This document shows, piece by piece, positions 27,373-61,100 of a DNA stretch of 64,000 nucleotides. Below the pieces are notes generated by a model that was not told where the DNA came from, ran no database searches, and saw only the letters and a program-made list of their open reading frames with translations. The position numbers and the translations under genes were made by a program. Every line of letters starts with the position of its first letter. Positions within the stretch are counted from its first letter, which is position 1. Source of the stretch: Lolium rigidum (taxonomy: Eukaryota > Streptophyta > Magnoliopsida > Poales > Poaceae); the NCBI RefSeq assembly GCF_022539505.1, contig NC_061508.1:29630256-29694255 (forward strand), in the 5' to 3' direction.

Positions 27373-28531
27373 TGTTGCCTGCCAAAACCCACCGGCGAGC
27401 AGCGACGAGCAACACGAAGAGCCGGGAGGCTCCCAGAACTGCTGGTGGGCCCTGGTCCCTCGGGCAACGGCCCGCAAAACTTCGGCACACGTCCTAGCTG
27501 GTGCGAGGGCGTGCCACCTAACCTATACCTGGCCAGGAAGATGATGGATTGCTTCGATTAATTTCCTGCATGGCAGACACGTAAACATTAAATTCGAGCC
27601 TCGATCGGCTCTCAGGTTATCCTGTGAATCGGCTCAAGGAGCCGATCCACCCATGATTCGTATTGGATCTACGATAACATGGTGGTCCTGCTTGATCAAC
27701 ACTAAGTTGAAACGATCTACGACGATCTAGGGTTTTCACCACATAACCGGAACGTCCTAAACGTAGTTGAGCCTGGCAGATACGAAAGATAACAGAAAAA
27801 CCAGCCCTAGCAAAGGCCTAAAAACCAACATAGAGTTGATTCCCGGAACATCTCCTCTAGGATCAGCAAACCGTACCTTACGCACTACTGGATCATTCAA
27901 CCCGTTTGCAAGGCCTAACCATATGGATATCAAACTAATCTTTGAAGAACAAGGAACAACCATAACAGATCGAATCTACTAAATAAAGACTAAGCAAGAT
28001 GCCACCCTTACACCTAAGATAGGTGCAAGGGCAGCTAGATATCCAAGGGCAGCATAACTAAGCAAATATACTAGAGAAGTACCGATGCTAGCCCTAACAC
28101 ATCTATGATAATGGTGTTATTCGCCATCAACAAGGCTTCAGTACGAGCAACACAAACAACGAATAAACAAGATGCTCGCTCGGATCGCTAGATGCGATCT
28201 GGGCAGCATGGCGCTTACCCGGAAGAAACCCTCGAAACAAGGGGTGGCGATGCGCCTAGATTGGTTTGTTGTGAACGTGATCGTCCTCCTTTCTCAATAA
28301 CCCTAGGTATATATTTATAGTCCGTGGACTTTCTACTTTCGGGATAAAACCTAACTCCGTACGAACTAAACTCTATCTCTTAATTCTAAATCTACCATAA
28401 TGTACAGATACACGGGCAATCTAGCCCAAACTCTCGTAAAAGGCCGATTCAGAAATATTTTACGTGCATATCCTCTAAGCCCATCTCAATCGCGGCCCAC
28501 CTCCTGACTTAGTTAAAATCTGGCGATAACA
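27373..28531 (-). repeat. 5' LTR of the Tat element (right copy)
   Basis: It pairs with 14655-15809. A TATAAATATATA box lies on the minus strand at about 28308-28319. The hairpin seen in the left LTR is altered here: CTG became CTCG (28175-28178) and CAG became CGG (28181-28183). Confidence 0.93.
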
Positions 28532-29090
28532 AGTACATGGGAGAGAGAGTACCAACTAGCTACTGCTAGAACCCGTAGTCCATGGGGGAACTACTCACAG
28601 AGCATGATGGAGGCGGTGGCGTCGATGGAGATGGCTTCCGGGGGCACTTCCCCGTCCCGGCAGGGTGCCGGAACAGAGACTTCTGTCCCCCGAATTGGAG
28701 TTTCGCGATGGCGGCGACGCCCCTGGAGTCTTTCTGGAGTTTCGTCAATTCGTGTCGCGTTTTTAGGTCGAAAGGGCTTATATAGGCGTAGAGGCGGCGC
28801 AGGAGGTGTGGGGGCCCCAGGCCTCCCCTCTGACTCCCCTTCGGTGTCCTGGTCCGTCTCGGTGAATTATGATGTTTGGTCTTCGTTTCGTCGAATTCAG
28901 AGAATATTGCCCGAACAGCCTTTCTGGAACCAAAAACAGCAGAAAACAGGAACTGACACTTCGGCATCTTGTTAATAGGTTAGTCCCGGAAAACGCATAA
29001 AAATATTATAAAGTGTGAGCAAAACATGTAGGTATTGTCATAAAACAAGCATGGAACATCAGAAATTATTGATACGTTGGAGTCGTATCA
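28532..29090 (-). repeat. LTR L3, subfamily 2, right part
   Basis: It resumes after the Tat insertion with the duplicated AGTAC (28532-28536). It runs through the TATATAAG box (about 28778-28786, minus) and ends in GATACGTTGGAGTCGTATCA at 29090. Compared with L1 and L2 it lacks a GC-rich block near 28805. Confidence 0.9.
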
Positions 29091-29661
29091 GTCCGGCCCA
29101 GAGGCCGGTCCAACCGGGCCAGAGACCGGCCAGGGACAAACTGCCCAGTTTTGTCTCGTTTTGCCTCGTTTTGCCCCTATTCTTTGTGTAAATGTGTATG
29201 AATGCTCAAATGATGACATGTACATATAGATAGATAGATGATGATGAGATGAGCATAGACATGGGGTTGGAAACGCAAAGTTCTCTAGGCATACCCATTG
29301 GAGAGAAAATCCAAACAAGATGTAAATAGCAACAATGGGCATGATTCGAAATATATATCAAGAATCATAAGTCATTTTGAAATGATTTTTTTTGCAATAA
29401 GATCATTTGGCCTTATATAGTCAAATCAAGTTGTAATGAAGGCTCAATGAGGGGCGGGGGATTACTCCCCCTATGTGAAAGCGCAAATGTCATGAGACCT
29501 CGAAGAGACATGCTTGGGTCGATATAATGACATTGGGTCTATTTATGTTGCACACATAGGTATGCATCATACCAAGACATGGTAGGATGACTATCCCCAT
29601 ATGTGATATGCCTCTAAGCTAGATAGCAAGATAAATGCAAGAATATAGTGCAAGAAGTTAA
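29091..29661 (-). other. 3' noncoding part of the SIRE/Maximus-like element
   Basis: No gene is seen. At 29091-29135 there are GCCGGTCC/AACCGG-type repeats resembling those in the element's own LTR (53455-53660). The rest is unique-looking and A/T-rich, up to the pol stop at 29662. I find no LTR start here. Confidence 0.55.
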
Positions 29662-30286
29662 TCAATCCAAGTTTTTAGGATCAAGAATACCAAGTTCTCC
29701 TCTCAAGTTAACAAAACGGGCTTCATCCAAAGGCTTAGTGAAAATATCCGCCAATTGGTAGGTTGTTCCCACATGAGTGAGATCAATATCCTTATTGGCA
29801 ACATGATCACGTAGGAAGTGATGGCAAATGTCAATATGTTTGGTGTGACAATGTTGAACCGGGTTGTTGGCGATCTTAATTGCACTTTCATTGTCACAAA
29901 GAAGAGGCACCGTACCAAGAGACACACCATAGTCTTTCAAGGTTTACTTCATCCATAACAATTGAGTGCAACAAGATGCCGCGGATATGTATTCGGCTTC
30001 GGCGGTGGATAGAGCGGTGGAGTTTTGTTTCTTGGATGACCAACTCACCAATGACCGGCCAATAAATTGGCAAGCCCCGGAGGTAGACTTCCGGTCAATC
30101 TTATCACTGGCCCAATCGGAATCCGAATAGCCAATGAGTTCAAAGGTTGACCCCTTTGGATACCATAGCCCGAGAGTAGAAGTGAGAACAAGGTATCTTA
30201 GAATCCGTTTGACCACCATTAAATGGCTCTCCTTAGGAGCGGATTGAAAACGAGCACACATCCCTACACTTAGCATGATATCCGGC
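29662..30286 (-). pseudogene. pol: Copia RNase H and C-terminus of pol (segment of the interrupted element)
   Basis: The segment continues the RT read at 38570-39074 across the inserted Athila-like element. The codons for ASRPD rejoin exactly at the CCGGC duplication. Ty1/Copia RNase H motifs are clear: GYSDSDWASD, KSTSGACQFIG, SWSSKKQ and STAEAEYI. Downstream are CDNESAIKIANN, HTKHIDICHHFLRD and LADIFTKPL. A TAA at about 29944-29946 interrupts the frame and is explained by CAA to TAA. The reading frame stops at 29662. Confidence 0.92.
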
Positions 30287-31881
30287 TGATACGTCTCCGA
30301 CGTATCGATAATTTCTTATGTTCCATGCCACATTATTGATGTTATCTACATGTTTTATGCACACTTTATGTCATATTCGTGTATTTTCTGGAACTAACCT
30401 ATTAACAAGATGCCGAAGTGCCGCTTGCTCGTTTTCCGCTGTTTTTGGTTTCAGAAATCCTAGTAAGGAAATATTCTCGGAATTGGACGAAATCAAAGCC
30501 CAGGGGCCTATTTTCTCACGAAGCTTCCGAAGTCCGAAGGAGAGACGAAGAGGGGCCACGGAGGGGCCACACCCTAGGGCGGCGCGGCCCCCCTTGGCCG
30601 CGCGGCCCCGTGGTGTGGGGCCCCCGTGCCGCCTCTTGACCTGCCCTTCCGCCTATAAAAAGTCTCCGTGACGAACCCCCCAGTACGGAGAGCCACGATA
30701 CGGAAAACCTTCCAGAGACGCCGCCAACGCCGATCCCATCTCGGGGGATCCAGGAGATCGCCTCCGGCACCCTGCCGGAGAGGGGAATCATCTCCCGGAG
30801 GACTCTACGCCGCCATGGTCGCCTCCGGTGTGATGTGTGAGTAGTCTACCCCTGGACTATGGGTCCATAGCAGTAGCTAGATGGTTGTCTTCTCCCCATT
30901 GTGCTATCATTGTCGGATCTTGTGAGCTGCCTAACATGATCAAGATCATCTATCTGTAATTCTATATGTTGCGTTTGTTGGGATCCGATGAATAGAGAAT
31001 ACTTGTTATGTTGATTATCAAAGTTATATCTATGTGTTGTTTATGATCTTGCATGCTCTCCGTTACTAGTAGATACTCTGGCCAAGTTTTTGCTATTAAC
31101 TCCAAGAGGGAGTACTTATGCTCGATAGTGGGTTCATGCCTGCATTGACACCGGGACAAGTGACGAAAGTTCTAAGGTTGTGTTGTGCTCGTTGCCACTA
31201 GGGATAAAACATTAGTGCTATGTTCAAGGATGTAGACACTAGTTACATTACGCACCATACTTAATGCAATTGTCTCGTTGTTTGCAACTTAATACCGGAG
31301 GGGGTTCGGATGATAACCTCGAAGGTGGACTTTTTAGGCATAGATGCGATTGGATGACGGTCTATGTACTTTGTCGTAATGCCCAATTAAATCTCACTAT
31401 ACTCATCATGATATGTATGTGCATGGTCATGCTCTCTTTATTTGTCAATTGCCCAACTCGTAATTTGTTCACCCAACATGCTCGTTCGTCTTATGGGAGA
31501 GACACCTCTAGTGAACTGTGGACCCCGGTCCAATTCTCTTTACCGAAATACAATCTACCGCAATACTTGTTCTACTCGTTTTCCGCAAACAATCATCTTC
31601 CACACAATACGGTTAACTCTTTGTTACAGCAAGCCGGTGAGATTGACAACCTCACTGTTTCGTTGGGGCAAAGTACTTTGGTTGTGTTGTGCAGGTTCCA
31701 CGTTGGCGCCGGAATCACCGGTGTTGCGCCGCACTACATCTCGCCGCCATCAACCTTCAACGTGCTTCTTGACTCCTACTGGTCCGATTAAACCTTGGTT
31801 TCTTACTGAGGGAAACTTGCCGCTGTGCGCATCACACCTTCCTCTTGGGGTTCCCAACGGACGTGCCAACCACACGCATCA
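30287..31881 (+). repeat. 5' LTR of the Athila-like element, subfamily 1
   Basis: It starts TGATACGTCTCCGACGTATC and ends CACACGCATCA. A TATAAAA box lies at 30654-30660. The first 20 bases contain an inverted repeat (GATACGTC and GACGTATC). Confidence 0.95.
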
Positions 31882-31891
31882 AGCAAATTTC

Positions 31892-31983
31892 TGGCGCCGT
31901 TGCCGGTGAACAAAGAAAAGTTACACCATAAAGATTTTCAACTCCCACGTCAACAGCTAAATTTCTGGCGCCGTTGCCGGGGA
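31892..31983 (+). promoter_or_regulatory. Duplicated tRNA-Asp primer-binding site
   Basis: TGGCGCCGTTGCCGG at 31892-31906 matches tRNA-Asp over 15 nt. TGGCGCCGTTGCCGGGGA at 31966-31983 matches over 18 nt. Both are preceded by AAATTTC, and the two copies are 74 bp apart. The first is at the normal distance from the LTR (10 bases); the second matches the tRNA better. Confidence 0.85.
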
Positions 31984-32209
31984 GATCAAGACACGCTGCA
32001 AGGGGAGTCTCCACTTCTCAATCTCTTTACTTTGTTTTTGTCTTGCTTAGTTTTATTTACTACTTTGTTTGCTGCACTAAATCAAAATACAAAAAAATTA
32101 GTTGCTAGTTTTACTTTATTTGCTATCTTGTTTGCTATATCTAAAACACAAAAAAAATTAGTTTACTTGCATTTACTTTATCTAGTTTGTTTTATTTACT
32201 GTTGCTAAA

Positions 32210-34361
32210 ATGGCCAACGCCGAAAACACTAAGTTGTGTGACTTCACAACCACAAATAATAATGATTTCTTATGCACACCTATTGCTCCACCTGCTACTA
32301 CAGCAGAATTCTTTGAAATTAAACCTGCTTTACTTAATCTTGTTATGCGAGAGCAATTTTCTGGTGTTAGTTCCGATGATGCTCGCTGCCCATCTTAATA
32401 ATTTTGTTGAATTATGTGAAATGCAAAAATATAAAGATGTAGATGGTGATATTATTAAACTAAAATTGTTCCCTTTCTCATTAAGAGGAAGAGCTAAAGA
32501 TTGGTTGCTATCTCTCGCCTAAGAATAGTATTGATTCATGGACTAAATGCAAGGATGCTTTTATTGGTAGATATTATCCCCCTGCTAAAATTATATCTTT
32601 GAGGAGTAGCATAATGAATTTTAAACAATTAGATACTGAACATGTTGCTCAAGCTTGGGAAAGAATGAAATCTTTGGTTAAAAATTGCCCAACCCATGGA
32701 CTGACTACTTGGATGATCATCCAAACCTTCTATGCAGGACTAAATTTTTCTTCGCGGAATTTATTGGATTCAGCTGCTGGAGGTACCTTTATGTCCATCA
32801 CTCTTGGTGAAGCAACAAAGCTTCTTGATAATATGATGACCAACTACTCTGAATGGCACACGGAAAGAGCTCCACAAGGTAAGAAGGTAAATTCTGTCGA
32901 AGAAACCTCTTCCTTGAGTGATAAGATTGATGCTATTATGTCTATGCTTGTGAATGGTAGGCCTAATGTTAATTCTAATAATGTTCCGCTAGCGTCATTA
33001 GTTGCTCAAAAAGAATATGTTGATGTGAATTTCATTAAAAATAACAATCACAATGATTCTAGGCCATACCCTGCTAATGGTAATTTTTATGGTAGATATG
33101 CTTCATCTAATGAAGAAAAGATGCTAGAAATTGAAAGATCCACCAAGAGCTTTATGCAATCACAATATGAGCAAAATAAATTGTTTACTAAAACTATGAA
33201 TGAGCAATCTACCTTGTTGAAGAATATAGGGAATCAACTTGAAAATCTGAATAGGGAGATCTCGGGGTTGCAAACTAAACTTGCTAGTGCTGAAACCCGA
33301 ATCTCATATATGTCTGCATCACAATCTTCTTTAATTAATAAAATGGCTGCTAAACCTGAGGATTTAGATGATAAAATTACTACTACAGCAAATGCCATTC
33401 AAGTTAGAATTAATGAGAATATAAGATTAATGGCTGAACTGCGTGCTAGGTGGGATAGAGAAGAAAATGAAAAACTAGCTAAAGAAAAGAATATAGCTAA
33501 AGTTTGGACTATTACCACCACTAGTAATGCTAATGCTACACATGTTGCTGCACCTCCTACTCATACTAATAAAAGAATTGGTGTTAGGAATGTTTCCACT
33601 TCTAATGCAAAGCGCGAAAAACTGCCTGAAACTGCTAAAACTGCTGAAACTGCCTTTGATAAAGCTGCTGAAATTTTTTCCAACATTGGGGATGATGATC
33701 CCATTGCTTTAGATTATAATGGTTTGAATTTTGATGATTGCCACATCTCTGAAGTTATAAAGTTCTTGCAAAAACTTGCTAAAAGTCCTAATGCTAGTGC
33801 TATAAATTTGGCTTTTACACATCATATTACAAATGCTCTTATAAAAGCTAGAGAAGAGAAACTAGAGCGTGAAGCCTCTATTCCTAAAAAGCTAGAGGAT
33901 GATTGGGAGCCCATCATTAAGATGAAGGTTAAAGATTTTGATTGTAATGCTTTATGTGATCTTGGTGCAAGTATTTCTGTTATGCCTAAGAAAATTTATA
34001 ATATGCTTGACTTGCCACCGCTGAAAAATTGTTATTTGGATGTTAATCTTGCTGATCATTCTACAAAGAAACCTTTGGGTAAAGTTGATAATGTTCGCAT
34101 TACCGTTAACAATAACCTTGTTCCCGTTGATTTTGTTGTCTTGGATATTGAATGCAATGCATCTTGTCCCATTATATTGGGAAGACCTTTTCTTCGAACT
34201 CGTTGGTGCTCGTTATTGATATGAAGGAAGGTAATATAAAATATCAATTTCCTCTCAAGAAAGGTATGGAACACTTCCCTAGAAAGAGAATGAAGGTACC
34301 TTTTGATTCCATTATGAGAACAAATTATGATGTTGACACTTCGTCTCTTGATAATACTTGA
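32210..34361 (+). pseudogene. gag: Gag-protease of the Athila-like element, interrupted by CTG-to-CTCG changes
   Basis: The start ATG is at 32210. The gag core (KLKLFPFSLRGRAKDWLLS, near 32460-32515) is followed by a helical, Asn/Lys-rich region (about 33100-33480) and an aspartic protease with LCDLGASISVMP (about 33950-33985) and PIILGRPFLRT (about 34170). The stop is at 34359-34361. The frame breaks at 32382-32385, at 32514-32517 and twice near the end (34199-34202 and 34209-34212). Each break is an extra C that turns CTG into CTCG. Removing these four bases in thought would leave one frame, so the gene may be intact in the real genome. Confidence 0.85.
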
Positions 34362-36969
34362 TACACACTTTCTGCGCCTAGCTGAAAGGCGTTAAAGAAA
34401 AGCGCTTATGGGAGACAACCCATGTTTTTACCTACAGTACTTTGTTTTTATTTTGTGTCTTGGAAGTTGTTTACTACTGTAGCAACCCCTTCTTATCTTA
34501 GTTTTGTGTTTTGTTGTGCCAAGTTAAGCCGTTGATAGAAAAGTAAGTACTAGATTTGGATTACTGCACAGTTCCAGATTTCTTTGCTGTCACGAATCTG
34601 AGTCCACCTCCCTGTAGGTAGCTCAGAAAATTAAGCCAATTTACGTGCATGATCCTCAGATATGTACGCAACTTTCATTCAATTTGAGCATTTTCATTTG
34701 AGCAAGTCTGGTGCCATTTTAAAATTCGTCAATACGAACTGTTCTGTTTTGACAGATTCTGCCTTTTATTTCGCATTGCCTCTTTCGCTATGTTGGATGA
34801 ATTTCTTTGATCCATTAATGTCCAGTAGCATTATGCAATGTCCAGAAGTGTTAAGAATGATTGTGTCACCTCTGAATATGTCAATTTATATTGTGCACTA
34901 ACCCTCTAATGAGTTGTTTCGAGTTTGGTGTGGAGGAAGTTTTCAAGGATCAAGAGAGGAGTATGATGCAACATGATCAAGGAGAGTGAAAGCTCTAAGC
35001 TTGGGGATGCACCCGGTGGTTCACCCCTGCATATATCAAGAAGACTCAAGCGTCTAAGCTTGGGGATGCCCAAGGCATCCCCTTCTTCATCGACAACATT
35101 ATCAGGTTCCTCCCCTGAAACTATATTTTTATTCCATCACATCTTATGTGCTTTTTCTTGGAGCATCGGTTTGTTTTTGTTTTTGTTTTGTTTGAATAAA
35201 ATGGATCCTAGCATTCACATTGTATGGGAGAGAGACACGCTCCGCTGTAGCATATGGACAAGTATGTCCTTGGTTTCTACTCATAGTATTCATGGCGAAG
35301 TTTCTCCTTCGTTAAATTGTTATATGGTTGGAATTGGAAAATGATACATGTAGTAATTGCTATAAATGTCTTGGGTAATGTGATACTTGGCAATTGTTGT
35401 GCTCATGATTAAGCTCTTGCATCATATGCTTTGCACCTATTAATGAAGAAATACATAGAGCATGCTAAAATTTGGTTTGCATATTTGGTTTCTCTAAGGT
35501 CTAGATAATTTCTAGTATTGAGTTTGAACAACAAGGAAGACGGTGTAGAGTCTTATAATGTTTTCAATATGTCTTTTATGTGAGTTTTGCTGCACCGGTT
35601 CATCCTTGTGTTTGTTTCAAATAAACCTTGCTAGCCTAAACCTTGTATCGAGAGGGAATACTTCTCATGCATCCAAAATACTTGAGCCAACCACTATGCC
35701 ATTTGTGTCCACCATACCTACCTACTACATGGTATTTTCCGCCATTCCAAAGTAAATTGCTTGAGTGCTACCTTTAAAATTCCATCATTCACCTTTGCAA
35801 TATATAGCTCATGGGACAAATAGCTTAAAAACTATTGTGGTATTGAATATGTAATTATGCACTTTATCTCTTATTAAGTTGCTTGTTGTGCGATAACCAT
35901 GTTTACCGGGGACGCCATCAACTTTTCATTGTTGAATTTCATGTGAGTTGCTATGCATGTTCGTCTTGTCCGAAGTAAGGGCGATCTACACCGAGTTGAA
36001 TGGTTTGAGCATGCATATTGTTAGAGAAGAACATTGGGCCGCTAACTAAAGCCATGATCCATGGTGGAAGTTTCAGTTTTGGACAAACATCCTCAAATCT
36101 CTAATGAGAAAAGAATTAATTGTTGTTGAATGCTTAAAGCATTAAAAAAGGAGTCCATTATCTGTTGTCTATGTTGTCCCGGTATGGATGTCTAAGTTGA
36201 GAATAATCAAAAGCGAGAAATCCAAATGCGAGCTTTCTCCTTAGACCTTTGTACAGGCGGCATAGAGGTACCCCTTTGTGATACTTGGTTAAAGCATATG
36301 TATTGCGGTGATAATCCAGGTAGTCCAAGCTAATTAGGACAAGGTGCGGGCACTATTAGTACACTATGCATGAGGCTTGCAACTTATAAGATATAATTTA
36401 CATGATGCATATGCTTTATTACTACCGTTGACAAAATTGTTTCATGTTTTCAAAATCAAAGCTCTAGCACAAATATAGCAATCGATGCTTTTCCTCTATG
36501 GAGGACCATTCTTTTACTTTCAATGTTGAGTCAGTTCACCTATTTCTCTCCACCTCAAGAAGCAAACACTTGTGTGAACTGTGCATTGATTCCTACATAC
36601 TTGCTTATTGCACTTATTATATTACTCTATGTTGACAATATCCATGAGATATACATGTTACAAGTTGAAAGCAACCGCTGAAACTTAATCTTCTTTTGTG
36701 TTGCTTCAATGCCTTTACTTTGAATTATTGCTTTATGAGTTAACTCTTATGCAAGACTTATTGATGCTTGTCTTGAAGTGCTATTCATGAAAAGTCTTTG
36801 CTATATGATTCACTTGTTTACTCATGTCATATACATTGTTTTGATCGCTGCATTCACTACATATGCTTTACAAATAGTATGATCAAGATTATGATGGCAT
36901 GTCACTCCGTAAATTATCCGTGTTATCGTTTTACCTGCTCGGGACGAGCAGAACTAAGCTTGGGGATGC
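34362..36969 (+). other. 3' noncoding region of the Athila-like element with polypurine tract
   Basis: No convincing gene is seen. The region is related, in reverse orientation, to 3227-5270 and 9674-12099 of the array. The motif CTAAGCTTGGGGATGC occurs three times: 34995-35010, 35054-35069 and 36954-36969. The last is directly before the 3' LTR and is the polypurine tract. Confidence 0.8.
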
Positions 36970-38564
36970 TGATACGTCTCCGACGTATCGATAATTTCTT
37001 ATGTTCCATGCCACATTATTGATGTTATCTACATGTTTTATGCACACTTTATGTCATATTCGTGTATTTTCTGGAACTAACCTATTAACAAGATGCCGAA
37101 GTGCCGATTGCTCGTTTTCTCGCTGTTTTTGGTTTCAGAAATCCTAGTAAGGAAATATTCTCGGAATTGGACGAAATCAAAGCCCGGGGGCCTATTTTCT
37201 CACGAAGCTTCCGGAAGTCCGAAGGAGAGACGAAGAGGGGCCACGGAGGGGCCACACCCTAGGGCGGCGCGGCCCCCCCCTTGGCCGCGCGGCCCTGTGG
37301 TGTGGGGCCCCCGTGCCGCCTCTTGACCTGCCCTTCCGCCTATAAAAAGTCTCCGTGACGAAACCCCCAGTACGGAGAGCCACGATACGGAAAACCTTCC
37401 AGAGACGCCGCCAACGCCGATCCCATCTCGGGGGATCCAGGAGATCGCCTCCGGCACCCTGCCGGAGAGGGGAATCATCTCCCGGAGGACTCTACGCCGC
37501 CATGGTCGCCTCCGGTGTGATGTGTGAGTAGTCTACCCCTGGACTATGGGTCCATAGCAGTAGCTAGATGGTTGTCTTCTCCCCATTGTGCTATCATTGT
37601 CGGATCTTGTGAGCTGCCTAACATGATCAAGATCATCTATCCGTAATTCTATATGTTGCGTTTGTTGGGATCCGATGAATAGAGAATACTTGTTATGTTG
37701 ATTATCAAAGTTATATCTATGTGTTGTTTATGATCTTGCATGCTCTCCGTTACTAGTAGATACTCTGGCCAAGTTTTTGCTATTAACTCCAAGAGGGAGT
37801 ACTTATGCTCGATAGTGGGTTCATGCCTGCATTGACACCTGGGACAGTGACAGAAAGTTCTAAGGTTGTGTTGTGCTGTTGCCACTAGGGATAAAACATT
37901 AGTGCTATGTTCAAGGATGTAGACACTAGTTACATTACGCACCATACTTAATGCAATTGTCTGTTGTTTGCAACTTAATACCGGAGGGGGTTCGGATGAT
38001 AACCTGAAGGTGGACTTTTTAGGCATAGATGCAGTTGGATGACGGTCTATGTACTTTGTCGTAATGCCCAATTAAATCTCACTATACTCATCATGATATG
38101 TATGTGCATGGTCATGCTCTCTTTATTTGTCAATTGCCCAACTGTAATTTGTTCACCCAACATGCTGTTCGTCTTATGGGAGAGACACCTCTAGTGAACT
38201 ATGGACCCCGGTCCAATTCTCTTTACTGAAATACAATCTACTGCAATACTTGTTCTACTGTTTTCTGCAAACAATCATCTTCCACACAATACGGTTAACT
38301 CTTTGTTACAGCAAGCCGGTGAGATTGACAACCTCACTCGTTTCGTTGGGGCAAAGTACTTTGGTTGTGTTGTGCAGGTTCCACGTTGGCGCCGGAATCA
38401 CCGGTGTTGCGCCGCACTACATCTCGCCGCCATCAACCTTCAACGTGCTTCTTGACTCCTACTGGTCCGATTAAACCTTGGTTTCTTACTAAGGGAAACT
38501 TGCCGCTGTGCGCATCACACCTTCCTCTTGGGGTTCCCAACGGACGTGCCAACCACATGCATCA
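36970..38564 (+). repeat. 3' LTR of the Athila-like element, subfamily 1
   Basis: It has the same length as the 5' LTR (1595 bp) and a TATAAAA box at 37341-37347. It keeps CTG or CAG at most places where the 5' LTR has CTCG, CG or CCG. One site is the other way round: CTCG at 38337-38340 against CTG at 31655-31657. Confidence 0.95.
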
Positions 38565-38569: not shown

Positions 38570-39074
38570 CTAGAGGCACAAAGGTAGAGCAAGGATCCTA
38601 TCATGGAGCGGTATACCTTTATGTACACATCCTTCTCACCGTCACATGAGCCAAGTTGCCCCTTTACGGGCATGGGTGTCTTCATTGGGCTTGCATTGGT
38701 CATGTTGAATTTCTTGAGCATGTCCTTCACATACTTTTCTTGAGAGATGAAGGTGCCTTTTGCAAGTTGCCTCACTTGGAAGCCTAGGAAGAACTTCAAC
38801 TCTCCCATCATGGACATCTCAAATTTCCTAGTCATCAATAGCTCAAAAGCTTTGTTATGATTGGGGTTAGTTCCACCAAAGATAATATCATCAACATATA
38901 TTTGACATATAAATAGGCCACCCCCTTTAACCCGCTTGGTGAAAAGGGTGGAATCGACCGTACCCATGCAAAACCCAACATGTAGTAAGAAATCCCTAAG
39001 GAACTCATACCAAGCACGTGGAGCTTGCTTGAGACCGTAGAGTGCCTTATGGAGTAAATACACGTGGTTGGGTC
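38570..39074 (-). pseudogene. pol: Copia reverse transcriptase core (segment of the interrupted element)
   Basis: The segment contains KALYGLKQAPRAWYEFLRDF, the active-site motif YVDDIIFGGTN and SLLYLCASRP, typical of the SIRE/Maximus lineage. It is open throughout. Its left end (minus-strand downstream) rejoins 30286 across the Athila-like insertion. Its right end rejoins 47827 across the BARE1/Angela-like insertion. Confidence 0.92.
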
Positions 39075-40848
39075 TGTTGGAGATATGCCCAAGAGGCAAT
39101 AATAAAAGCGGTTATTATATATCTTTATGTTTATGATAAATGTTTATATACCATGCTATAATTGTATTAACCGAAACATTGATACATGTGTGATATGTAA
39201 ACAACAAAGAGTCCCTAGTACGCCTCTTAACTAGCTTGTTGATTAATGGATGATTAGTTTCATAATCATGAACATTGGATGTTATTAATAACAAGGTTAT
39301 ATCTTTATATGAATGATGTAATGGACACACTCAATTAAGCGTAGCATAAGATCACGTCATTAAGTTAATTGCTATAAGCTTTCGATACATAGTTACCTAG
39401 TCTTTATGACCATGAGATCATGTAAATCACTTATACAGGAAAGGTACTTTGATTACATCAAATGCCACTGCGTAAATGGGTGGTTATAAAGGTGGGATTA
39501 AGTATCCGGAAAGTATGAGTTGAGGCATATGGATCAACAGTGGGATTTGTCCATCCCGATGACGGATAGATATACTCCGGGCCCTCTCGGTGGAATGTCG
39601 TCTATTGTCTTGCAAGCATATGAATAAGTTCATAAGAGACCACATACCATGGTACGAGTAAAGAGTACTTGTCGGAGACGAGGTTGAACAAGGTATAGAG
39701 TGATACCGATGATCAAACCTCGGACAAGTAAAATATCGCGTGACAAAGGGAATTGGTATCGTATGTGAATGGTTCATTCGATCACTAAGTCATCGTTGAA
39801 TATGTGGGAGCCATTATGGATTTCCAGATCCCGCTATTGGTTATTGGTCAGAGAGAGTTCTCACCCATGTCCACATAGTTCGCGAACCGTAGGGTGACAC
39901 ACTTAAGGTTTGATGTTGAAATGGTAGAACTTGAATATGGAATGGAGTTCGAAGTATTGTTCGAAGTCTCGGATGGGATCCCGGACATCACGAGGAGTTC
40001 CGGAATGGTCCGGAGAATAAGATTCATATATAGGAAGTCATTTTACAAGTTTGAAAATGATCCGGTGATTTTACGGAAGGTTCTAGAAGGTTCTAGAAAA
40101 TTCCGGAAGGAATCACTAAGGAAGGAGGAGTCCCGGAGGGACTCCACCTCCCCATGGCCGGCCAACCCTAGAGGGGGGAGTCCAAGGTGGACTCCACGCT
40201 AAGGGGGCCGGCCACCCCCCCACATGGAAGGGGGGAATCCCACTTGAGGTGGGAGTCCCACCATGGGTAGGTTTCCCTACTACATGGAAGGTTCTTGTGT
40301 TGGGGTCTTATTCGAAGACTTGTAGTCCAACACTTGGGGATCCACCTATATAATGAGGGGCATAGGGGAGGGGGCCGGCCACCACAAAGCCACAAGCTGG
40401 CTGCACCCCTTGAGGCCGGCCACCCCCTCTCCCAAACCCTAGCCGCCCCCTCTCCTCCACCTCTCCCGTACACTTAGCGAAGCTCCGCCGGAGTTCTCCA
40501 TCGCCACCGCCACCACGCCGTCGTGCTGCCGGATTCAAGGAGGAGCTACTACTTCCGCTGCCCGCTGGAACGGGGAGAAGGACGCCGTCTTCATCAACAC
40601 CGAACGTGTGACCGAGTACGGAGGTGCTGCCCGATCGTGGCACCGTGATCAAGATCTTCTACGCGCTTTTGCAAGCGGCAAGTGATCGTCTACCGCAGCA
40701 ACAAGAGCCTCATCTTGTAGGCTTTGGAAATCTTCAAGGGTGAGTCTCGATCATTTCCTCGTTGCTCCCGTCTTCTAGATTGCATCTTGGCTTGGATTGC
40801 GTTCTCGCGGTAGGAAATTTTTTGTTTTCTATGCAACGAATCCCTACA
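39075..40848 (+). repeat. 5' LTR of the BARE1/Angela-like element
   Basis: TG...CA termini; TATATAAT at 40347-40354. Differences from the 3' LTR are mostly C/T transitions, plus a few CAG-type changes (for example CGG against CAGG near 39674). Confidence 0.95.
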
Positions 40849-40862: not shown

Positions 40863-42049
40863 GTGTACTGTGCATAGATGGTTGCACGAGTAGAACACAA
40901 TGGTTTTGTGGGCGTTGATGCTCTTGTTGTCTTTAGTTTGAGTACTTTGCATCTTTGTGGCATAGTGGGATGAAGCGGCTCGGACTAACTTTACATGACC
41001 GCGTTCATGAGACTTGTTCCTCGTTCGACATGCAACTTGTATTGCATAAGAGGCTTTGCGGGTGTCTGTCTCTCCTACTATAGTGAATATTTAATTTACT
41101 CTTCTATTGACAACACTAGTATCATCGTTGTGGTTCATGTTCGTAGGTAGATTAGATCTCTCTCGAAAACCCTAAACCACGTAAAATATGCAAACCAAAT
41201 TAGAGACGTCTAACTTGTTTTTGCAGGGTTTGGTGATGTGATATGGCCATAATGTGATGATGAATATGTATGAGATGATCATTATTGTATTGTGGCAACC
41301 GGCGGGAGCCTTATGGTTGTCTTTAAATTTCATGTTGAGTAGTATTTCAAAGTAGTTGTAATAGTTGCTACATGAGGTGAACAACCATGAAGACGGCACC
41401 ATGGACCTTGACGCTACGCCGACGATGATGGAGATCATGCCCGAAGATGATGGAGATCTTGTCCGTGCTTTGGAGATGAAGATCAAAGGCGCAAAGACAA
41501 AAGGGCCATATCATATCACATATGAACTGCATGTGATGTTAATCCTTTTATGCATCTTATTTTGCTTAGATCGCGATGGTAGCATTATAAGATGATCCCT
41601 CACTAAAATATCAAGATAATAAAGTGTTCATCCTTAGTAGCACCGTTGCCAAGACTTGTCGTTTCGAAGCATCTCGTGATGATCGGGTGTGATATAATCA
41701 ACAAGTGCATACAACGGGTGCAAGCCAGTTTTGCACATGCGGATACTAAGGTGGCCTTGACGAGCCTAGCATGTACAGACATGGTCTCGGAACACGTGAT
41801 ACCGAAAGGTAGAGCATGAATCATATGATTGATATGATGGACACTTTGAGTGTTCGCCATTGAAATTACATCTTGTCTCGTGATGATCGGACTTAGGTGT
41901 GGTGGATTTGGTTCGTGTGATCACTAAGACAATGCGAGGGATATTGTTTTGAGTGGGAGTTCACCTAGATTTTTAATTATGTTGAATTAAAATTTGAACT
42001 CAATTTGTCATAAACTTAGTCTAAACTATTGCAAATATATGTTGTAGAT
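40863..42049 (+). other. Untranslated leader of the BARE1/Angela-like element
   Basis: A leader of about 1.2 kb without a convincing coding region. A short open stretch (41365-41595) is present but lacks protein features. Long leaders of this kind are normal for the BARE1/Angela family. Confidence 0.7.
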
Positions 42050-42906
42050 ATGGCGTCCCCAATCAATTTTAACCAGTTCCTAGAGAAAGAAAAGCTTAAG
42101 AGCAATGGTAGCAACTTCACCGACTGGTTCCGTCATGTGAGGATCTTCCTCGCTGGCGGAAATCTGCAATATGTGCTTGATGCACCGCTAGGTGACCCTC
42201 CCGCGAAACTGAAACCGATGAAGTAAAGAATGTTTACGCAACTCGGAAAGCTCGGTACTCTCAAGTTCGGTGTGCCATCCCGTGCGGTCCGGAAGCCGAT
42301 CTTCAAAAACGTTTTGAGCACCACGATCCTCATGAGTTGGTCAATGAGCTGAAAGCTATATTTGAAACTCATGCGGCCGTGGAATGCTATGAAGCATCGA
42401 AACACTTCTTCGACTGCATGATGGAAGAAGGCAGCTCCGTTAGTGAGCACATGCTCGTTATGACCGGGCATGCGAAGAAACTCGGTGACTTGGGAATAGT
42501 GATTCCTAACAGACTGGGGATTAATCGTGTCCTTCAATCACTGCCACCTAGTTACAAGAACTTTGTGATGAACTACAATATGCAGAACATGAACAAAGAG
42601 TTACCTGAACTCTTTGGCACGCTAAAAACTGCTGAGATTGAGATCAAGAAAGAGCACCAAGTGTTGATGGTCAACAAGACCACCAGTTTCAAGAAACAGG
42701 GCAAGTCTAAGGGAAAATTCAAGAAGGGTGGAAAGAAAGCTGCCACGCCTCCTATGAAACCTAAGAACGGCCCTAAGCCTGATGCTGAGTGCTATTACTG
42801 CAAGGAGAAGGGACACTGGAAGCGTAATTGCTCCAAGTATCTGGCTGATCGAAGAGCGGCCTTGTCAAGAAGAAGAAAGAAGGTATATCCGATATACATG
42901 TTATAG
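42050..42906 (+). pseudogene. gag: Gag of the BARE1/Angela-like element, frame interrupted
   Basis: It starts MASPINFNQFLEKEKLKSNG, followed by the FTDWF motif of Copia gag (UBN2-type). After a frame break near 42214 the gag core continues (from 42337: NELKAIFETHAAVECYEASK). The CCHC zinc knuckle is CYYCKEKGHWKRNC (about 42790-42831). The break at 42214-42215 is explained by CAG read as CG. A second at 42850-42851 (CTG read as CG) throws the C-terminus out of frame. Gag and pol form one reading frame in this family. Confidence 0.88.
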
Positions 42907-45900
42907 ATGTTTATCTCACTCGGTTCTCGTACTAGTACCGGGTATTTGATACTGGTTCGGTTGCTCATATTTGTAACTCGAAACAGGAACTAAAGAATAA
43001 ACGAAGACTACTGAAAGATGAAGTGACGATGCGCGTTGGAAACGGATCCAAAGTCGATGTGATCGCTGTTGGCACACTTCCTCTACATCTACCTTCGGGA
43101 TTAGTTTTAAGCCTAAATAATTGTTATTTTGTACCCGTGTTGAGCATGAACATTATATCTGGATCTTGTTTAATGCAAGACGGTTATTCATTCAAGTCCG
43201 AGAATAATGGTTGTTCTATTTTTATGAATAATATCTTTTATGGTCGAGCACCTGAAAAGAATGGCTTATTTCTGTTAGATCTCGATAGTAGTGATACACA
43301 TATACATAACATTGATGCTAAGAGAATTAAATTGAATGATAATTCCACTTATATGTGGCACTGTCGTCTTGGTCATATTGGAGTGAAAGGCAAGAAGAAA
43401 CTCCATACCGATGGATTACTTGAATCACTTGACTTTGAGTCACTTGATAGATGTGAAGCATGTCTGATGGGAAAAATGACTAAGACTCCATTCTCTAGTA
43501 TGATGGAGCGAGCTACTGACTTATTGGAAATCATACATACCGATGTGTGCGGACCAATGAGTGTAGCATCGCGCGGTGGTTATCGTTATGTTCTAACCTT
43601 CACAGATGATCTGAGTAGATATGGGTATATCTATTTCATGAAACATAAATCCGAAACTTTCGAGAAGTTTAAGGAATTCCAAAGTGAAGTAGAAAATCAA
43701 TGTAACAAGAAGATTAAATTTCGACGATCTGATCGCGGAGGTGAATATCTGAGTTATGAGTTTGGCATGCATTTAAAGAAATGCGGAATACTTTCACAAT
43801 TGACACCGCCGGGAACACCTCAACGAAACGGTGTGTCCGAACGTTGTAATCGAACTCTCTTAGATATGGTTTGTTCTATGATGTCTCTTACTGATTTGCC
43901 GTTATCGTTTTGGAGTTATGCATTAGAGACAGCCGCATTCACTTTAAATAGAGCACCATCAAAATCCGTAGAAACGACACTGTATGAATTATGGTTTAAT
44001 AAGAAACCTAAGCTGTCATTCCTTAAAGTTTGGGGTTGCGAAGCCTATGTAAAGAAGTTACAACCGGACAAGCTAGAACCCAAAGCGGAGAAATGCGTCT
44101 TCATAGGATACCCTAAGGAAACTATAGGGTACACTTTCTATCACAGATCCGAAGGCAAAATCTTTGTTGCTAAGAACGGAACCTTTCTTGAGAAAGAATT
44201 TCTCACTAAAGAAGTGACTGGAAGAAAAGTAGAACTCGATGAGATTGATGATCTTTACTCGTTGATCAGAGTAGCGCAGTACCGGAAGCTGTTCCTGTGC
44301 CGCCTACACCAGCAACAGAGGAAGCTAATGATAATGATCATGAAACTTCGAACGAGAAAGCTACTGAACCTCGCAGATCGACAAGGGAACATACCACTCC
44401 TGATTGGTATGATCCTTGTCTAAATGTCATGATTGTGGACAACAATGATGAAGACCCTGTGACGTATGAAGAAGCAATGATGAGCCCAGATTCCAACAAA
44501 TGGCAAGAAGCCATGAAATCCGAAATGGGATCCATGTATGATAACAAAGTGTGGACTTTGGTAGACTTACCTGATAGCCGCAAGGCTGTTGAGAATAAAT
44601 GGATCCTCAAGAGAAAAACAGATGCCGATGGTAATATTACTGTCTATAAAGCTCGACTTGTCGCAAAGGGTTTCCGACAAATTCAAGGTGTTGACTACGA
44701 TGAGACTTTCTCACCTGTAGCGAAGCTAAAATCTGTGAGGATTTTGTTAGCAATAGCTGCATTTTTCGATTATGAGATTTGGCAGATGGATGTCAAAACG
44801 GCGTTCCTTAATGGAGACATTGAGGAAGAGTTGTATATGGTACAACCCAAAGGTTTTGTCGATCCTAAAAATACTAACAAAGTATGCAAACTTCAGCGTT
44901 CAATTTATGGACTAAAGCAAGCATCGAGAAGTTGGAACCGACGTTTTGATAAGGTGATCAAAGACTTCGGGTTTATACAGTGTCATGGAGAGGCCTGTAT
45001 TTACAAGAAAGTGAGTGGGAGCTCTGTAGCATTCCCGATATTATATGTAGATGACATATTATTGATTGGGAATGATATAGAACTATTAAGCAGTGTAAAA
45101 GGTTATTTGAATAATAGTTTTTCAATGAAAGACCTTGGTGAAGCATCGTATATATTAGGCACCAAGATTTATAGAGATAGATCAAGACGCCTAATAGGGC
45201 TATCACAGAGTACATGCCTGGACAAGATTCTAAAGAAGTTTAGAATGGACGAAAGTAAGAAAGGGTACTTACCTATGTTACCAGGCAAGGTCTTGAGTAA
45301 GACTCAAGGACCGGCTACGGCAGAAGAAAGAGAAAGGATGAGTCAGATCCCCTATGCCTCGGCAGTAGGCTCTATCATGTATGCCATGCTATGTACTAGA
45401 CCGGATATAGCACATGTTGTTAGTTTGACTAGCAGATATCAAAGTGATCCAGGAATGGAACACTGGACAGTGGTCAAGAATATCCCGAAGTACTTGAAAA
45501 GAACTAAGGATATGTTTCTTTGTTATGGAGGTGACCAAGAGCTCGTTGTAACAAGTTACACCGATGCAAGTTGGAACACCGATCCCGATGACTCTAAGTC
45601 ACGATCCGGGTACGTGTTTATATTGAATGGTGCTGCAGTAAGCTGGGCAAGCTCGAAGCAGGTGCACGGTGGCGAAGTCTTAAACATAATCGAGTACATA
45701 GCGGCTTCGCAGGCTTCATCGAAGCGGTATGGATGAAGAGGTTCATTGTAGAGCTCGGTGTGGTTCCTAGTGCATTGGACCCACTAGTCATCTACTGTGA
45801 CAACATGGGAGCCATCGCCAATGCACAAGAACCAAGGTCACACAAGAGGCTGAAGCATATCAAGCTGCGTTATCACTCGAAGATGGAGAAGTAAAGATTT

Positions 45901-46011: not shown

Positions 46012-46043
46012 CTAGATTATTGACTCTAGTGCAAGTGGGATAC

Positions 46044-47821
46044 TGTTGGAGATATGCCCAAGAGGCAATAATAAAAGTGGTTATTATATATCTTTATGTT
46101 TATGATAAATGTTTATATACCATGCTATAATTGTATTAACCGAAACATTGATACATGTGTGATATGTAAACAACAAAGAGTCCCTAGTATGCCTCTTAAC
46201 TAGCTTGTTGATTAATGGATGATTAGTTTCATAATCATGAACATTGGATGTTATTAATAACAAGGTTATATCATTATATGAATGATGTAATGGACACACC
46301 CAATTAAGCGTAGCATAAGATCACGTCATTAAGTTAATTGCTACAAGCTTTCGATACATAGTTACCTAGTCCTTATGACCATGAGATCATGTAAATCACT
46401 TATACCGGAAAGGTACTTTGATTACATCAAACGCCACTGCGTAAATGGGTGGTTATAAAGGTGGGATTAAGTATCCGGAAAGTATGAGTTGAGGCATATG
46501 GATCAACAGTGGGATTTCTCCATCCCGATGACGGATAGATATACTCTGGGCCCTCTCGGTGGAATGTCGTCTATTGTCTTGCAAGCATATGAATAAGTTC
46601 ATAAGAGACCACATACCACGGTACGAGTAAAGAGTACTTGTCAGGAGACGAGGTTGAACAAGGTATAGAGTGATACCGATGATCAAACCTCGGACAAGTA
46701 AAATATCGCCTGACAAAGGGAATTGGTATCGTATGTGAATGGTTCATTCGATCACTAAGTCATCGTTGAATATGTGGGAGCCATTATGGATCTCCAGATC
46801 CCGCTATTGGTTATTGGGTCGGAGAGAGTTCTCACTCATGTCCACATAGTTCGCGAACCGTAGGGTGACACACTTAAGGTTTGATGTTGAAATGGTAGAA
46901 CTTGAATATGGAATGGAGTTCGAAGTATTGTTCGAAGTCTCATATGGGATCCCGGACATCACGAGGAGTTCCGGAATGGTCCGGAGAATAAGATTCATAT
47001 ATAGGAAGTCATTTTATAAGTTTGAAAATGATCCGGCGATTTTACGGAAGGTTCTAGAAGGTTCTAGAAAAGTCCGGAAGGAATCACTAAGGAAGGAGGA
47101 GTCCCGGAGGGACTCCACCTCCCCATGGTCGGCCGACCCTAGAGGGGGGAGTCCAAGGTGGACTCCACCTAAGTGGGCCGGCCACCCCTCCCCCACATGG
47201 AAGGGGGGAATCCCACTTGAGGTGGGAGTCCCACCTTGGGTAGGTTTCCCTACTACATGGAAGGTTCTTGTGTTGGGGTCTTATTTGAAGACTTGTAGTC
47301 CAACACTTGGGGATCCACCTATATAATGAGGGGCATAGGGAAGGGGGCCGGCCACCACAAAGCCACAAGCTGGCCGCACCCCTTGAGGCTAGCCACCCCC
47401 TCTCCCAAACCCTAGCCGCCCCCTCTCCTCCACCTCTCCCGCACGCTTAGCGAAGCTCCGCCGGAGTTCTGCATCGCCACCGCCACCACGCCGTCGTGCT
47501 GCCGGATTCAAGGAGGAGCTACTACTTCCGCTGCCCGCTGAAACGGGGAGAAGGACGTCGTCTTCATCAACACCGAACGTGTGACTGAGTACGGAGGTGC
47601 TTCCCGATCGTGGCACCGTGATCAAGATCTTCTACGCACTTTTGCAAGCGGCAAGTGATCGTCTACCGCAGCAACAAGAGCCTCACCTTGTAGGCTTTGG
47701 AAATCTTCAAGGGTGAGTCTCGATCATCTCCTGGTTGCTCCCGTCTTCTAGATTGCATCTTGGATTGGATTGCGTTCTCGCGGTAGGAAATTTTTTGTTT
47801 TCTATGCAACAAATCCCTACA
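46044..47821 (+). repeat. 3' LTR of the BARE1/Angela-like element
   Basis: It starts TGTTGGAGATATGCCC directly after the purine-rich GCAAGTGGGATAC. TATATAAT at 47320-47327. It ends CCCTACA before GGGTC. Confidence 0.95.
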
Positions 47822-52670: not shown

Positions 52671-52709
52671 CTCACTCTTAAGGCGGTGAAGCCCTTAATA
52701 AGAGTCTAG

Positions 52710-52721: not shown

Positions 52722-52723
52722 AT

Positions 52724-56800: not shown

Positions 56801-57680
56801 CTGCTGATGCGGGCTGACGATGCCACTTCTTTTCATTGTACTCCGTATAAAACTTCAGTGTATCTTCGTGAAACTCAGTATACGCCAGCTTAATTAGAAC
56901 GCTTGGGATCAGCTAGCTGCAGTACCGTCAGCTTCACGTACTATCCTTCGCGAATCGATGCCCATGATCTGATGATCGATCGACATCATTGCGTGCGCCC
57001 ACTCTCGCATGTCATAACGAAAATACTAGAACAGCTCATTCTTAAGTTTTGCGTGGCTCACACTTGCTGAAAAAATATATAGATATATAAAAGACATTCG
57101 ATGGATTATAAAACTAAACACTCCATGCAGTCAAATCGAATTCCTTCTCAACGTCGATCTACAGTTGAATTGATTATTGCTCAAAATGTTTACCCAGATC
57201 AATATATGTCCTTCCTCGACTGGAACGTGGACAGAGGTCGCACGATCGATCGAGTCAAAGATAAACGAGATGATGATACTGGGATTTGATTCCGAGATGT
57301 TGGGCAACGTGGCCATCACTCGATCGCTCGAGCTGAAACTGTGTCCGTCCTGTTTTCTTTAAACACAGTACAAACATTCACAAATACGTACTTACCCCTA
57401 TGACCATAGGGTGTGCTCCGGCGTCCCCGCCGGCGAACGACGTTCAGGTGGGATACCCGTTCGAGAAGGTGGGGCCGTATTAGTGGCGTATAATTATACT
57501 CCACGTCATTTTTCACATAGATGATCGGTTGCCACGTAGATATGGTACGTATCCTTGGTGATGACGGTTTCCGCCGGCCCCATGGCATTAGAATCAGAGT
57601 TGGACCAAAAAACTACGTCGATCACGTGGATTTGATGCCGACGATGGGCGGTGGTTACGGGGAAATTATTTGAATCCTTG
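53858..57680. other. Region without a recognised gene
   Basis: The left half (to about 55500) is A/T-rich and has only short open frames. I recognise no LTR, no conserved coding domain and no clear terminal inverted repeats. The ORFs here are under about 95 codons and have random-looking composition. It is the flank of the Copia element and probably old intergenic DNA. Small MITEs cannot be excluded by eye. Confidence 0.6.
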
Positions 57681-57906
57681 CGTGTGCGCCATTGCTGGTC
57701 CTCCTTAGGGTTTGGAAGGTTCTGTCCATCGGGAGGGAGACGGCAGGGACGACGACATTGGGACGGCAAGGCGTAGCGCAGGGCGGTTTCGTTCGTGTGC
57801 GCCATTGCTGGTCCTCCTTAGGGTTTGGAAGGTTTTGTCCATCGGGAGGGAGACGGCAGGGACGACGACGTTGGGACGGCAAGGCGTAGCGCAGGGCGGT
57901 TTCATC
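57681..57906. repeat. 113-bp tandem duplication upstream of the MULE transposase
   Basis: Two near-identical units (57681-57793 and 57794-57906) start CGTGTGCGCCATTGCTGG and end near GCAGGGCGGTTTC. A second, 27-bp tandem repeat (GCAAGGTCGGACGCGGAGGA core) follows at 57966-58019. Both lie in the G/C-rich leader region. Confidence 0.93.
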
Positions 57907-58195
57907 CCGAGAGCTGAGCCGGGTATCGTGGAGGCGGGAGGCGGATCCGACGACGAGGAGGCTGGGCAAGGTCGGACGCGGAGGAGGATCCGGCAAGGTC
58001 GGACGCGGAGGAGGATCGCACGCGGGTTGTTCCTGCTGGTACAGGCGGCGTTAGGGTTTGGCGGATCGTTGTTGGTTGTGGGAGGTAACTGATTCTAAAA
58101 ACTAATTGCATGTTCATGATTTGGTTGATGTTAGGGTTTGGGTTTGGAGCTCCTTTTTTGAGATGTACTTATTTGGTTGTTACTTTGGACAGGCG

Positions 58196-61100
58196 ATGGA
58201 CGTTTCAGATTTGAGTGCAAGTTCAATGGAGTACGACAGCGGAAATACAGATGAAGAGGAATTCAATATTTCGTCTGCCAACGAGAATGCACCTCCTGAA
58301 GATGAACAAACTTCTGGAGACGATGATGTCGACGAAAGTGTGAGTGAAACGGAACTACTAGTTTTATTTAGTACTTGCATGTAAGTAGTTAAATACTGAT
58401 TGTGCTTATTTTTGCTAATAGATGGATGCAGATGGTATTGATCTAGAAGATGATAATGTAGAGCAAGAAGAAGATGTTGACACTGATAATGTGAGTTTGT
58501 AGTAATAAATGTCTGATTGCATAAAAATATGGAATTGATGTTGACATGGTTTAAAATGCATTAGATTCAGAGTGATGTTGTGGAGGAGCCAACTCGATGA
58601 CGAGAGATTGGACTCTGGTTTTGTTGACGAGGTATGCATTTTAATTTTATTAGGTCATATGTATGTTTAATTTATATTTAATAACTGAACAATGCATTTT
58701 ATGTCGTCGTGACATGACCGTTAATCTTTCTTGTTTGCTCATGTCTTAGTTAGCGATAATTCTTCTTACGACTATTACGGTGATTCAGATTTGGAGACTA
58801 TAGAAGAACCTGTTAGAAGAAGACATGTAAGTTTTTTGAATTTATTCGTTGTATGACTCGCGGACATGGCGTTCAAAAAAATTTATGTTTTCAATGTTAT
58901 CAAATTGTGCATGCAGGTGAAATCAGTTGGTAAGAAAAAGAATGGATCGAGAGGATGAAGATGAGAGTGATACGGAAGATAAGAGAAAGTTTTACTCGGG
59001 AGGTAATGGAGAAGACATTTGTGTCTGAGGCAGCTGCTTATACTTTTTATAATGGATATGCTCGACAAGAGGGATTCAGTGTAAGAAAGTTCAAGTTCAA
59101 AGAGACTAAGGGTGCTAACAAAATAGTTCGCAGAAAGCGTTTTGTGTGTTCACGGGAAGGAAAACGTAACAGCAAGTTTCTGACTATGGACAACCGCACC
59201 CGTAGGTTGAGACCTTTGTCACGTTGCAATTGTAAAGCGGAGTTGGATGTGAAGCTTGATAGAGGTTCGGGGCTTTGGCGAGTTGCAAAATTTGTTTACA
59301 AGCACAGTCATAAGTGTGCAGAACCGACCGAGAGCCCATTTTTATGGTCACATAGGAGGATAAAAGATTTCCAGAAAGCGGAGATATTAGCATTGGCAGC
59401 AGCTGGGGTTAGGAAGCATGTGATCATGGATACCTTCCTCAGCAAGTATGGTCGGTACACCACTGTTGGGTTTACGAGGAAGGACTTGTACAACATGTGC
59501 TGCAGGGAGAAGAGAAAGTTACTTGCAGGTGGTGATGCTAGCTCAGCCATTGCCATGATGGAGAACCGGAGGAAGAAGTTTGCTGACTTTTTTTTTAGTA
59601 CGACGTTGATAGTAAAGGTCGTTTGAAAAGCTTGTTCTGGTGTGATGCTCAGTCCCGGGACTATTACAATGATTATGGAGACGTACTCGTGTTCGACAGC
59701 ACATATAAGATGAACCGATATGGTATGCCATTTGTTCCGTTTGTTGGAATTAACAATCACTGGAGGACGACAGTTTTTGCGTGTGCCATCTTATCAGATG
59801 AGAAGGAACGCACATATGTATGGCATATGTATGGCTACTGAAGTCTTTTTTGAAAGCTATGTTGCAGCAGAAACCCAAGTCAATAATCACCGATGCCGAT
59901 AGTGCGATGATTAGAGCTATTCGAAGTGTGTTTCCGGAGCAGTCACACCGTATTTGTTCATGGCACATTGAAAAGAACATGGCTCGGCACCTAAGTTTCA
60001 AGTCGTTGAGTGAGTTTCGGGCTCTCTTGTATTACACGACCACACCAGATATATTCGAGGAAAGATGGCACGCTTTTATCTAGAAATGGCAGACGGAGAA
60101 AACACAAACTTGGCTGAAAAGAATGTACAAGAAGAGGAGATTATGGGCAGCGGCGTACCTATCTGAGGGGTTCTGGCTTGGTATGAAAAGCAATCAGCGA
60201 AGTGAAAGTCTTAACTCATGTCTTCACCTACACCTAGACTACGGTATGACACTAGTGGATTTGATTTTGCACTACGAGAATGCTATAGTGCGCATTCGAG
60301 AGACGGAGGCAAAAGATGACCGCATCGGTTCACGGACATCACCTGTACCAAGTAACCAATTTGAGGAGAATTGAGAGAGCTGTTGCAAAGGTATTCACTC
60401 TGGCAAACTTTTATATATTGCAGCAAGAGATATATAAAATAGAAGGAATTGAGGTTATAGATCAGTATAAGGGAACAGAAGGTGAGATGCAGTTTGTTGT
60501 TGCTTGGAAAAAGAGAAAGCATGCAAAGTTTTATGTTGATTATAAATCGGCCAACTCGGATAAACTTGTAGAGTGCAGCTGTCGAAGGATGATCCGGAGG
60601 GGACTTCCTTGCAAGCATATTCTCCATGTACTTGATGTGCTGGATTTGGATGAAATATCGGATTGTTTAGTTCTGCTCCGATTCTCTAAACAAGCTAGGG
60701 GTGGCTTGCCAGCGAGGCGCACGAGCGATCTATATGGTTGGGGTTTTCCCGTAGCGGAGGAGCGACAAAGATTTACCGAGCTGAATGTGTTACAATCTGA
60801 AGCATTGCAAGTTGCATGCAAAGATCCGGCCACCGTTATTCGAGCGGACCAAGGCATTTTATGCTGACATTATTTCAAACAAGATGGAGTATGATAATGT
60901 ACCCAACCGTCCCACAAACTCGCAGAATACTAATGTTAATGAATTGGGTGGCCCTGCTCAAGTTGCTGCTCGAGGTGCGCCTAAGAAACGAAAGCGTAGA
61001 TATGATGGAGAAGGACCCGTGACAATGAATGGAAGGCCATTATCGTATGACGAGCGGGGTAGGGGGATTCGATGTAGCAGATGCAAAAAGGCTGGACACA

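Follow-up and report, generated by a model that had tools for sequence, protein, structure and literature searches.

Recurrent anomalies at CTG and CAG, i.e., at CWG sites (W being A or T), interrupt the repeats and reading frames of a 64,000-nucleotide stretch of the Lolium rigidum reference (assembly GCF_022539505.1, contig NC_061508.1, forward-strand positions 29,630,256 to 29,694,255; hereafter the window). These anomalies are very probably (about 0.9, in our estimate) consensus errors of a nanopore assembly at CWG sites that we infer to be methylated, and not mutations. This interpretation is based on the specificity of the changes for the motif, the creation of CpG, the near absence of descent from element to element copy in the forms, their reappearance in another repeat family, patchiness within copies, and the sequencing method.

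The original prediction, made from the sequence alone, listed changes of CTG to CTCG, CG or CCG, and the equivalents at CAG, in Athila-like, Tat-like and BARE/Angela-like elements and in a MULE gene, and attributed them to errors at methylated cytosines in a long-read assembly. The names Athila, Tat and BARE/Angela are taken from that prediction; copia and MULE domains were confirmed in the window with Pfam. The strings described were present at all 32 of the 32 coordinates cited.

CTG and CAG anomalies in Athila-like long terminal repeats

The two long terminal repeats (LTRs) of the window's Athila-like element (Table 1) aligned with 98.2% identity, 17 mismatches and 11 gaps. As had been claimed, the 5' LTR carries six CTCG-for-CTG insertions, a reverse case is found at 38339, and CG, CAAG, CG and CGA forms occur too. 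One more site, 30436, was not on the original list; here the LTRs show CCG and CTCG, and CTG with the same flanks is present in 14 of 33 LTR copies. Twenty of the 32 cited sites were compared with a mate or with other copies: 11 in this LTR pair, four in gag, three in the copia internal stretch, and two in the Tat-like LTR (with the mate only). The other 12 (40857, 42214, 44260, 45720 and the eight MULE sites) lay outside the copy comparison. Of the four sites in gag, three show a form in the window that none of the seven or eight other copies has; at the fourth, two of eight copies share it.

The set of 33 Athila-like LTR copies, each with at least 94% identity and more than 1500 aligned columns, came from the window and 20 fetched loci, which were chosen best first from 43 matches; L001–L008 were excluded from the alignments. 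Of its 12 LTR pairs, L017 and L027 were omitted from the ten-pair tests below because their LTRs were not among each other's three nearest copies. This omission favours concordance at ordinary sites; the trinucleotide-class test and a repeat of the concordance test used all 12 pairs.

CTG sites across the 33 copies read CTG, CTCG, CTTG, CCG or CG, depending on the copy. At 31190, for example, 12 copies have CTG, eight CTTG, six CTCG, and the rest other forms. Alternatives to CTG with intact flanks numbered 146 (CCG 59, CTCG 30, CG 10, TCG 9, CTTG 9, CTA 4, ACTG 4, CAG 4, TTG 3, and rarer ones), 32 more cases with changed flanks being excluded from this tally. The predicted insertion of a C thus occurs, and the sharper form of the statement is that CpG is present in 112 of the 146 alternatives. 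CpG-containing forms were found in all 33 copies, at 4–22 of 40 CWG loci per copy (mean 12.8, true CCG variants included). Loci with such forms were clustered, with 174 adjacent pairs versus 137.5 (standard deviation 6.3) in shuffles of the 40 loci and 33 copies. Runs of this kind are expected of an assembly artefact if polishing succeeded only in some patches. There was also an effect of context: CpG forms had a mean frequency of 0.45 where T preceded the site and of 0.13 where G did.

The changes were strongly concentrated on the motif. Over the 12 pairs, 62 of 627 CTG/CAG trinucleotides (9.9%) contained a gap and 23.4% a substitution, versus at most 3.5% and 4.3%, respectively, for the other 31 trinucleotide classes away from CWG. 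Over ten pairs, insertion of C before the last base was seen at 30 of 518 CTG, at 0 of 3818 [AGT]TG and at 3 of 2994 CT[ACT]; the counts for T to C at the same sites were 59, 20 and 4. Because insertion is rare at both near-identical motifs, the preceding C and the following G must both be required, as in CHG (H being A, C or T), and the errors fall on the methylation motif. The original prediction had set an equal rate at non-CHG trinucleotides beforehand as its refutation, and the rates found are far from equal. Its assignment to CHG stands for CWG (CTG and CAG) but not for CHG as a whole, a restriction explained by CCG already holding a CpG.

Descent of the variant forms

The two LTRs of an element are identical upon insertion, so that any variant that was inherited has to be the same in both mates. 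In the ten pairs, the 46 variable columns lying outside indel blocks gave a rate of agreement of 0.97 for mates, versus 0.60 for non-mates. For indel blocks (at most four columns, with a second allele in at least three copies) the outcome depended on the motif: mates agreed in 76 of 90 comparisons at nine non-CWG blocks (0.844, versus 0.513 for non-mates), and in 78 of 180 at 18 CWG blocks (0.433, versus 0.322). With all 12 pairs, the concordant counts were 533/552 for ordinary columns, 91/108 for non-CWG blocks, and 87/216 for CWG blocks.

Substitutions gave a similar picture. At the 17 CTG/CCG or CAG/CGG columns mates agreed in 103 of 168 comparisons, versus 0.542 for non-mates, and at 76 other substitution columns in 694 of 754, versus 0.596; these 76 columns divide into 473/478 concordant away from CWG and 221/276 near it. 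Proximity to CWG likewise separated 12 other CpG-transition columns (80/118 concordant), three of which, away from CWG, were concordant in 30/30 comparisons and nine of which, near CWG, were concordant in 50/88. In the window pair, mates differed at 3 of 1336 positions outside CWG surroundings versus 14 of 255 within them. The CWG forms are thus hardly inherited: save for a small inherited share, the forms in CWG indel blocks do not follow descent, and CWG sites of the Athila-like pairs do not show the allele shared by both LTRs that is expected of inherited family variants.

Sequencing method, other repeats and rival explanations

The paper describing the L. rigidum assembly (Paril 2022, PMC9664059) gives its size as 2.44 Gb in 1,764 scaffolds, with an N50 of 361.79 Mb and a quality value (QV) of 39.28. 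Its methods list nanopore reads made with the LSK109 ligation kit on R9.4.1 flow cells (FLO-MIN106D and FLO-PRO002), basecalling in guppy 5.1 with the general model dna_r9.4.1_450bps_sup, and assembly with Flye followed by polishing, three times each with Racon and with Polca, the latter on Illumina reads. Since the kit is a ligation kit, the DNA sequenced was presumably native, so that a general basecaller model would have been applied to nanopore signal from native DNA.

These methods suggest how the anomalies could have arisen. Silenced repeats of a plant would carry, in native DNA, 5-methylation on both strands at the outer cytosine of CWG. If trained on 5-methylcytosine (5mC) mainly in CpG, the general R9.4.1 model could take the modified signal for CpG and would then write CTCG, CCG, CG or TCG (on the opposite strand CGAG, CGG, CG or CGA). 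Because Racon works on the same reads, it would be unable to correct such errors; short reads, probably unplaceable in repeats, may have left them standing in patches where polishing failed. The CpG-rich outcomes point to a model that treats 5mC signal as evidence for CpG, a single cause for insertion, deletion and substitution. The original attribution to consensus errors at methylated cytosines is thus supported by the motif specificity together with native nanopore data and a general model.

The effect recurs in a second family. In the copia internal stretch (25 copies, i.e., the window and 24 of 39 non-window matches), base-difference columns near CWG held 86 minor alleles in 95 columns, versus 26 in 213 columns elsewhere. 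The prediction of one signature across unrelated elements accordingly holds for the Athila-like elements and for this copia stretch; it does not extend with equal strength to ten other repeat pairs, and within copies the signature is patchy.

Several observations weigh against the artefact interpretation or narrow it. In the ten non-Athila repeat pairs, C insertion was weak (4 of 414 CTG, 0 of 3025 [AGT]TG, 0 of 2995 CT[ACT]), T to C being seen at 21, 36 and 24 of the same sites; this weakness counts against a uniform artefact. The window's copia LTR pair (39074-40848 and 46043-47821) contains no C insertion and one CAG/CG-type gap, at 39673. A 4.6-kb direct duplication (3229-7818 and 10058-14654; 98.2% identity, 78 mismatches) contains two gaps, neither of the CTCG/CG type, and a blindly chosen 40-kb stretch of contig C5 yielded a single LTR-like pair, which had no gaps and 17 mismatches. 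Our guess is that family differences are due to copy number and age, which set short-read placement. At 42919 in the copia stretch, 14 of the 24 other copies share the window's CTCG, which makes it the commoner form, so that the majority among copies is no guide to error versus truth. No CpG is present in 34 of the 146 CTG alternatives, CTTG (nine cases) and CAAG among them. Some CWG contexts are unaffected, AGCTGCC being without a CpG form in both the Athila-like and the copia families; this calls for pore-context dependence or a site-specific lack of methylation. The CTG/CCG differences, moreover, are mixed with true inherited variants and are in part ordinary deamination, and the excess of mate over non-mate concordance at CWG blocks means that some variants there are inherited.

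Among the rival explanations, nanopore noise of a general sort, or homopolymer error, with no link to methylation would fit those indel blocks that lie in runs of C or G; however, the context of the changes is CWG, not runs, and C insertion is almost nil at other TG and CT trinucleotides, and we regard such noise as very unlikely. Ordinary CpG deamination of ancestral CCG or CGG to CTG or CAG would account for CTG/CCG being the largest class of alternatives, and three of the 17 columns of this type do look inherited, mates agreeing in 8, 8 and 10 of 10 pairs. But deamination cannot give rise to CTCG or CG, and the T/C rate at CTG is far above that at other TG contexts, which share CpG deamination. 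It thus fails for indels and contributes to the CCG class in a minor way; as an explanation of the whole it is most improbable. Old family variants, inherited and shuffled by recombination or gene conversion, would explain why there are several alleles per site and why mate concordance at CWG slightly exceeds that of non-mates. Yet other variants in the same LTRs are concordant, and from the 473/478 away from CWG it follows that conversion did not shuffle those, whereas the CWG blocks lose nearly all concordance; shuffling of this kind has next to no probability. On the concordance, outcome and motif tests we reject inheritance, conversion between copies, ordinary deamination and homopolymer noise as main causes.

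True mutation would produce an identical sequence pattern; CWG is a motif of methylation, and methylation can be followed by mutation. In one version, hypermutation in the plant would insert C or convert T to C at methylated CWG once the element had inserted. The recurrence of several outcomes at one site in many copies and the unequal mate differences of the window pair within and outside CWG surroundings both argue against it, and the nanopore method provides a simpler cause; we consider it extremely unlikely. The known direction of mutation at 5mC is C to T, and the corresponding products TTG and CTA make up only 7 of the 146 alternatives; insertions and deletions are not accounted for by it. 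Scarcely any credence can be given, likewise, to some unknown process of grasses that turns methylated CWG into CpG in young retrotransposons, repeatedly at the same sites after insertion.

Two side observations concern the distribution of the motif itself. The copia LTRs are low in CTG/CAG: they have ~13 per 1.78 kb, whereas the Athila-like pair of the window has 23 and 32 per 1.6 kb. CHG sites may have been lost from them over a long time. CWG sites that never show a CpG form are found at columns 161, 370 and 659 of the Athila-like LTR alignment and at columns 40 and 86 of the copia stretch; these are either unmethylated or correctly read in that context.

Reading frames, LTR dating and related cases

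The original prediction held that CWG anomalies explain most frameshifts. In the copia gag-pol region, five of the six cited sites (including 42214, 44260 and 45720) do lie in overlaps of open frames. The claim does not carry over to the Athila-like internal region as a whole, where ten short indels distinguish the window from 70% or more of the other copies and three of these fall on CWG (three of four within 32157-34201). Nor does it suffice for the MULE transposase domain, which is split over two frames at 59802-59838, at an 11-bp tandem duplication. Since this duplication is a non-CWG event and forms a second break, intactness of the MULE gene does not follow, and the suggestion that the pseudogenes here may be intact goes beyond the evidence.

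Table 1. Positions of the elements and regions discussed, numbered from the first base of the window
Feature	Coordinates	Strand	Observation
Athila-like 5' LTR	30285..31881	+	CpG-containing form at 17 of 40 tallied CWG loci, mostly in a run at ~31152-31584
Athila-like 3' LTR (mate)	36968..38564	+	CpG-containing form at 8 of 40 tallied CWG loci
Athila-like gag region	32382..34213	+	Four cited CTCG sites compared with other copies
Copia (BARE/Angela-like) internal stretch	42700..43000	+	Three cited CWG sites variable among 24 other copies
Copia gag-pol, shifted open frames	42020..45891	+	Retrotran_gag_2, zf-CCHC, Pol_BBD, gag_pre-integrs, rve, SH3, RVT_2
Tat-like LTR	28175..28185	+	Compared with mate 15458-15463: CTCG for CTG, CGG for CAG
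FAR1/MULE/SWIM gene region	58593..60353	+	Eight cited sites
11-bp tandem duplication in MULE	59814..59835	+	At the frame change of the domain; non-CWG event

The window also contains two tandem duplications of two copies each, at 25254-25495 (~125 bases, 97.6%) and at 57681-57903 (~110 bases, 98.2%). Elsewhere, tandem arrays occur on contig C5 (diverged copies at ~135-base spacing; L029-L032, ~8253-11317 of the joined stretch) and next to one Athila-like copy (~56-base period; L010, 1-698).

Exclusion of CWG surroundings lowers LTR divergence from 224/15889 (1.41%) to 70/13584 (0.52%) over the ten pairs, and from 17/1591 (1.07%) to 3/1336 (0.22%) in the window pair; LTR ages are inflated to that extent, although the 2.7-fold and 4.8-fold figures call for caution because the exclusion also discards true CHG deamination. 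The anomalies affect how frameshifts are counted, genes labelled 'pseudogene', CpG statistics compiled and LTR insertions dated from this chromosome-scale reference of a major weed, and base accuracy in the repeats examined seems well below the reported QV. If the proposed mechanism is true, the same pattern may be present in other plant assemblies made from native-DNA R9 reads with general models, and the errors could act as a crude record, element by element, of CWG methylation.

The general kind of error is already known, and its CpG-creating form at CWG in a plant assembly is a new member of it. In the literature searched, which mostly left out subscription journals, no description of CpG-creating CWG errors in a plant nanopore assembly was found. 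Ferguson et al. 2022 (PMC9749173) name plant methylation as a likely cause of the lower accuracy that general basecallers reach when the native DNA comes from plants, as we would for ryegrass; the main text of that paper contains no word beginning with 'CHG', 'CAG' or 'CTG'. A modification new to the model led to systematic consensus errors in Listeria genomes as well (PMC10687267), where whole-genome amplification removed the errors. A further likeness is to the Dcm sites (CCWGG) of bacterial assemblies, at which default Oxford Nanopore Technologies (ONT) models fail, as does a human-trained model (Wick et al. 2019, PMC6591954). As we propose for ryegrass, 5mC there sits within a core of CWG, and what default models misread persists into the consensus. 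Unlike the Dcm case, the ryegrass case concerns a grass genome, in which CWG is affected in many flanks and non-uniformly; its outcomes mostly create CpG.

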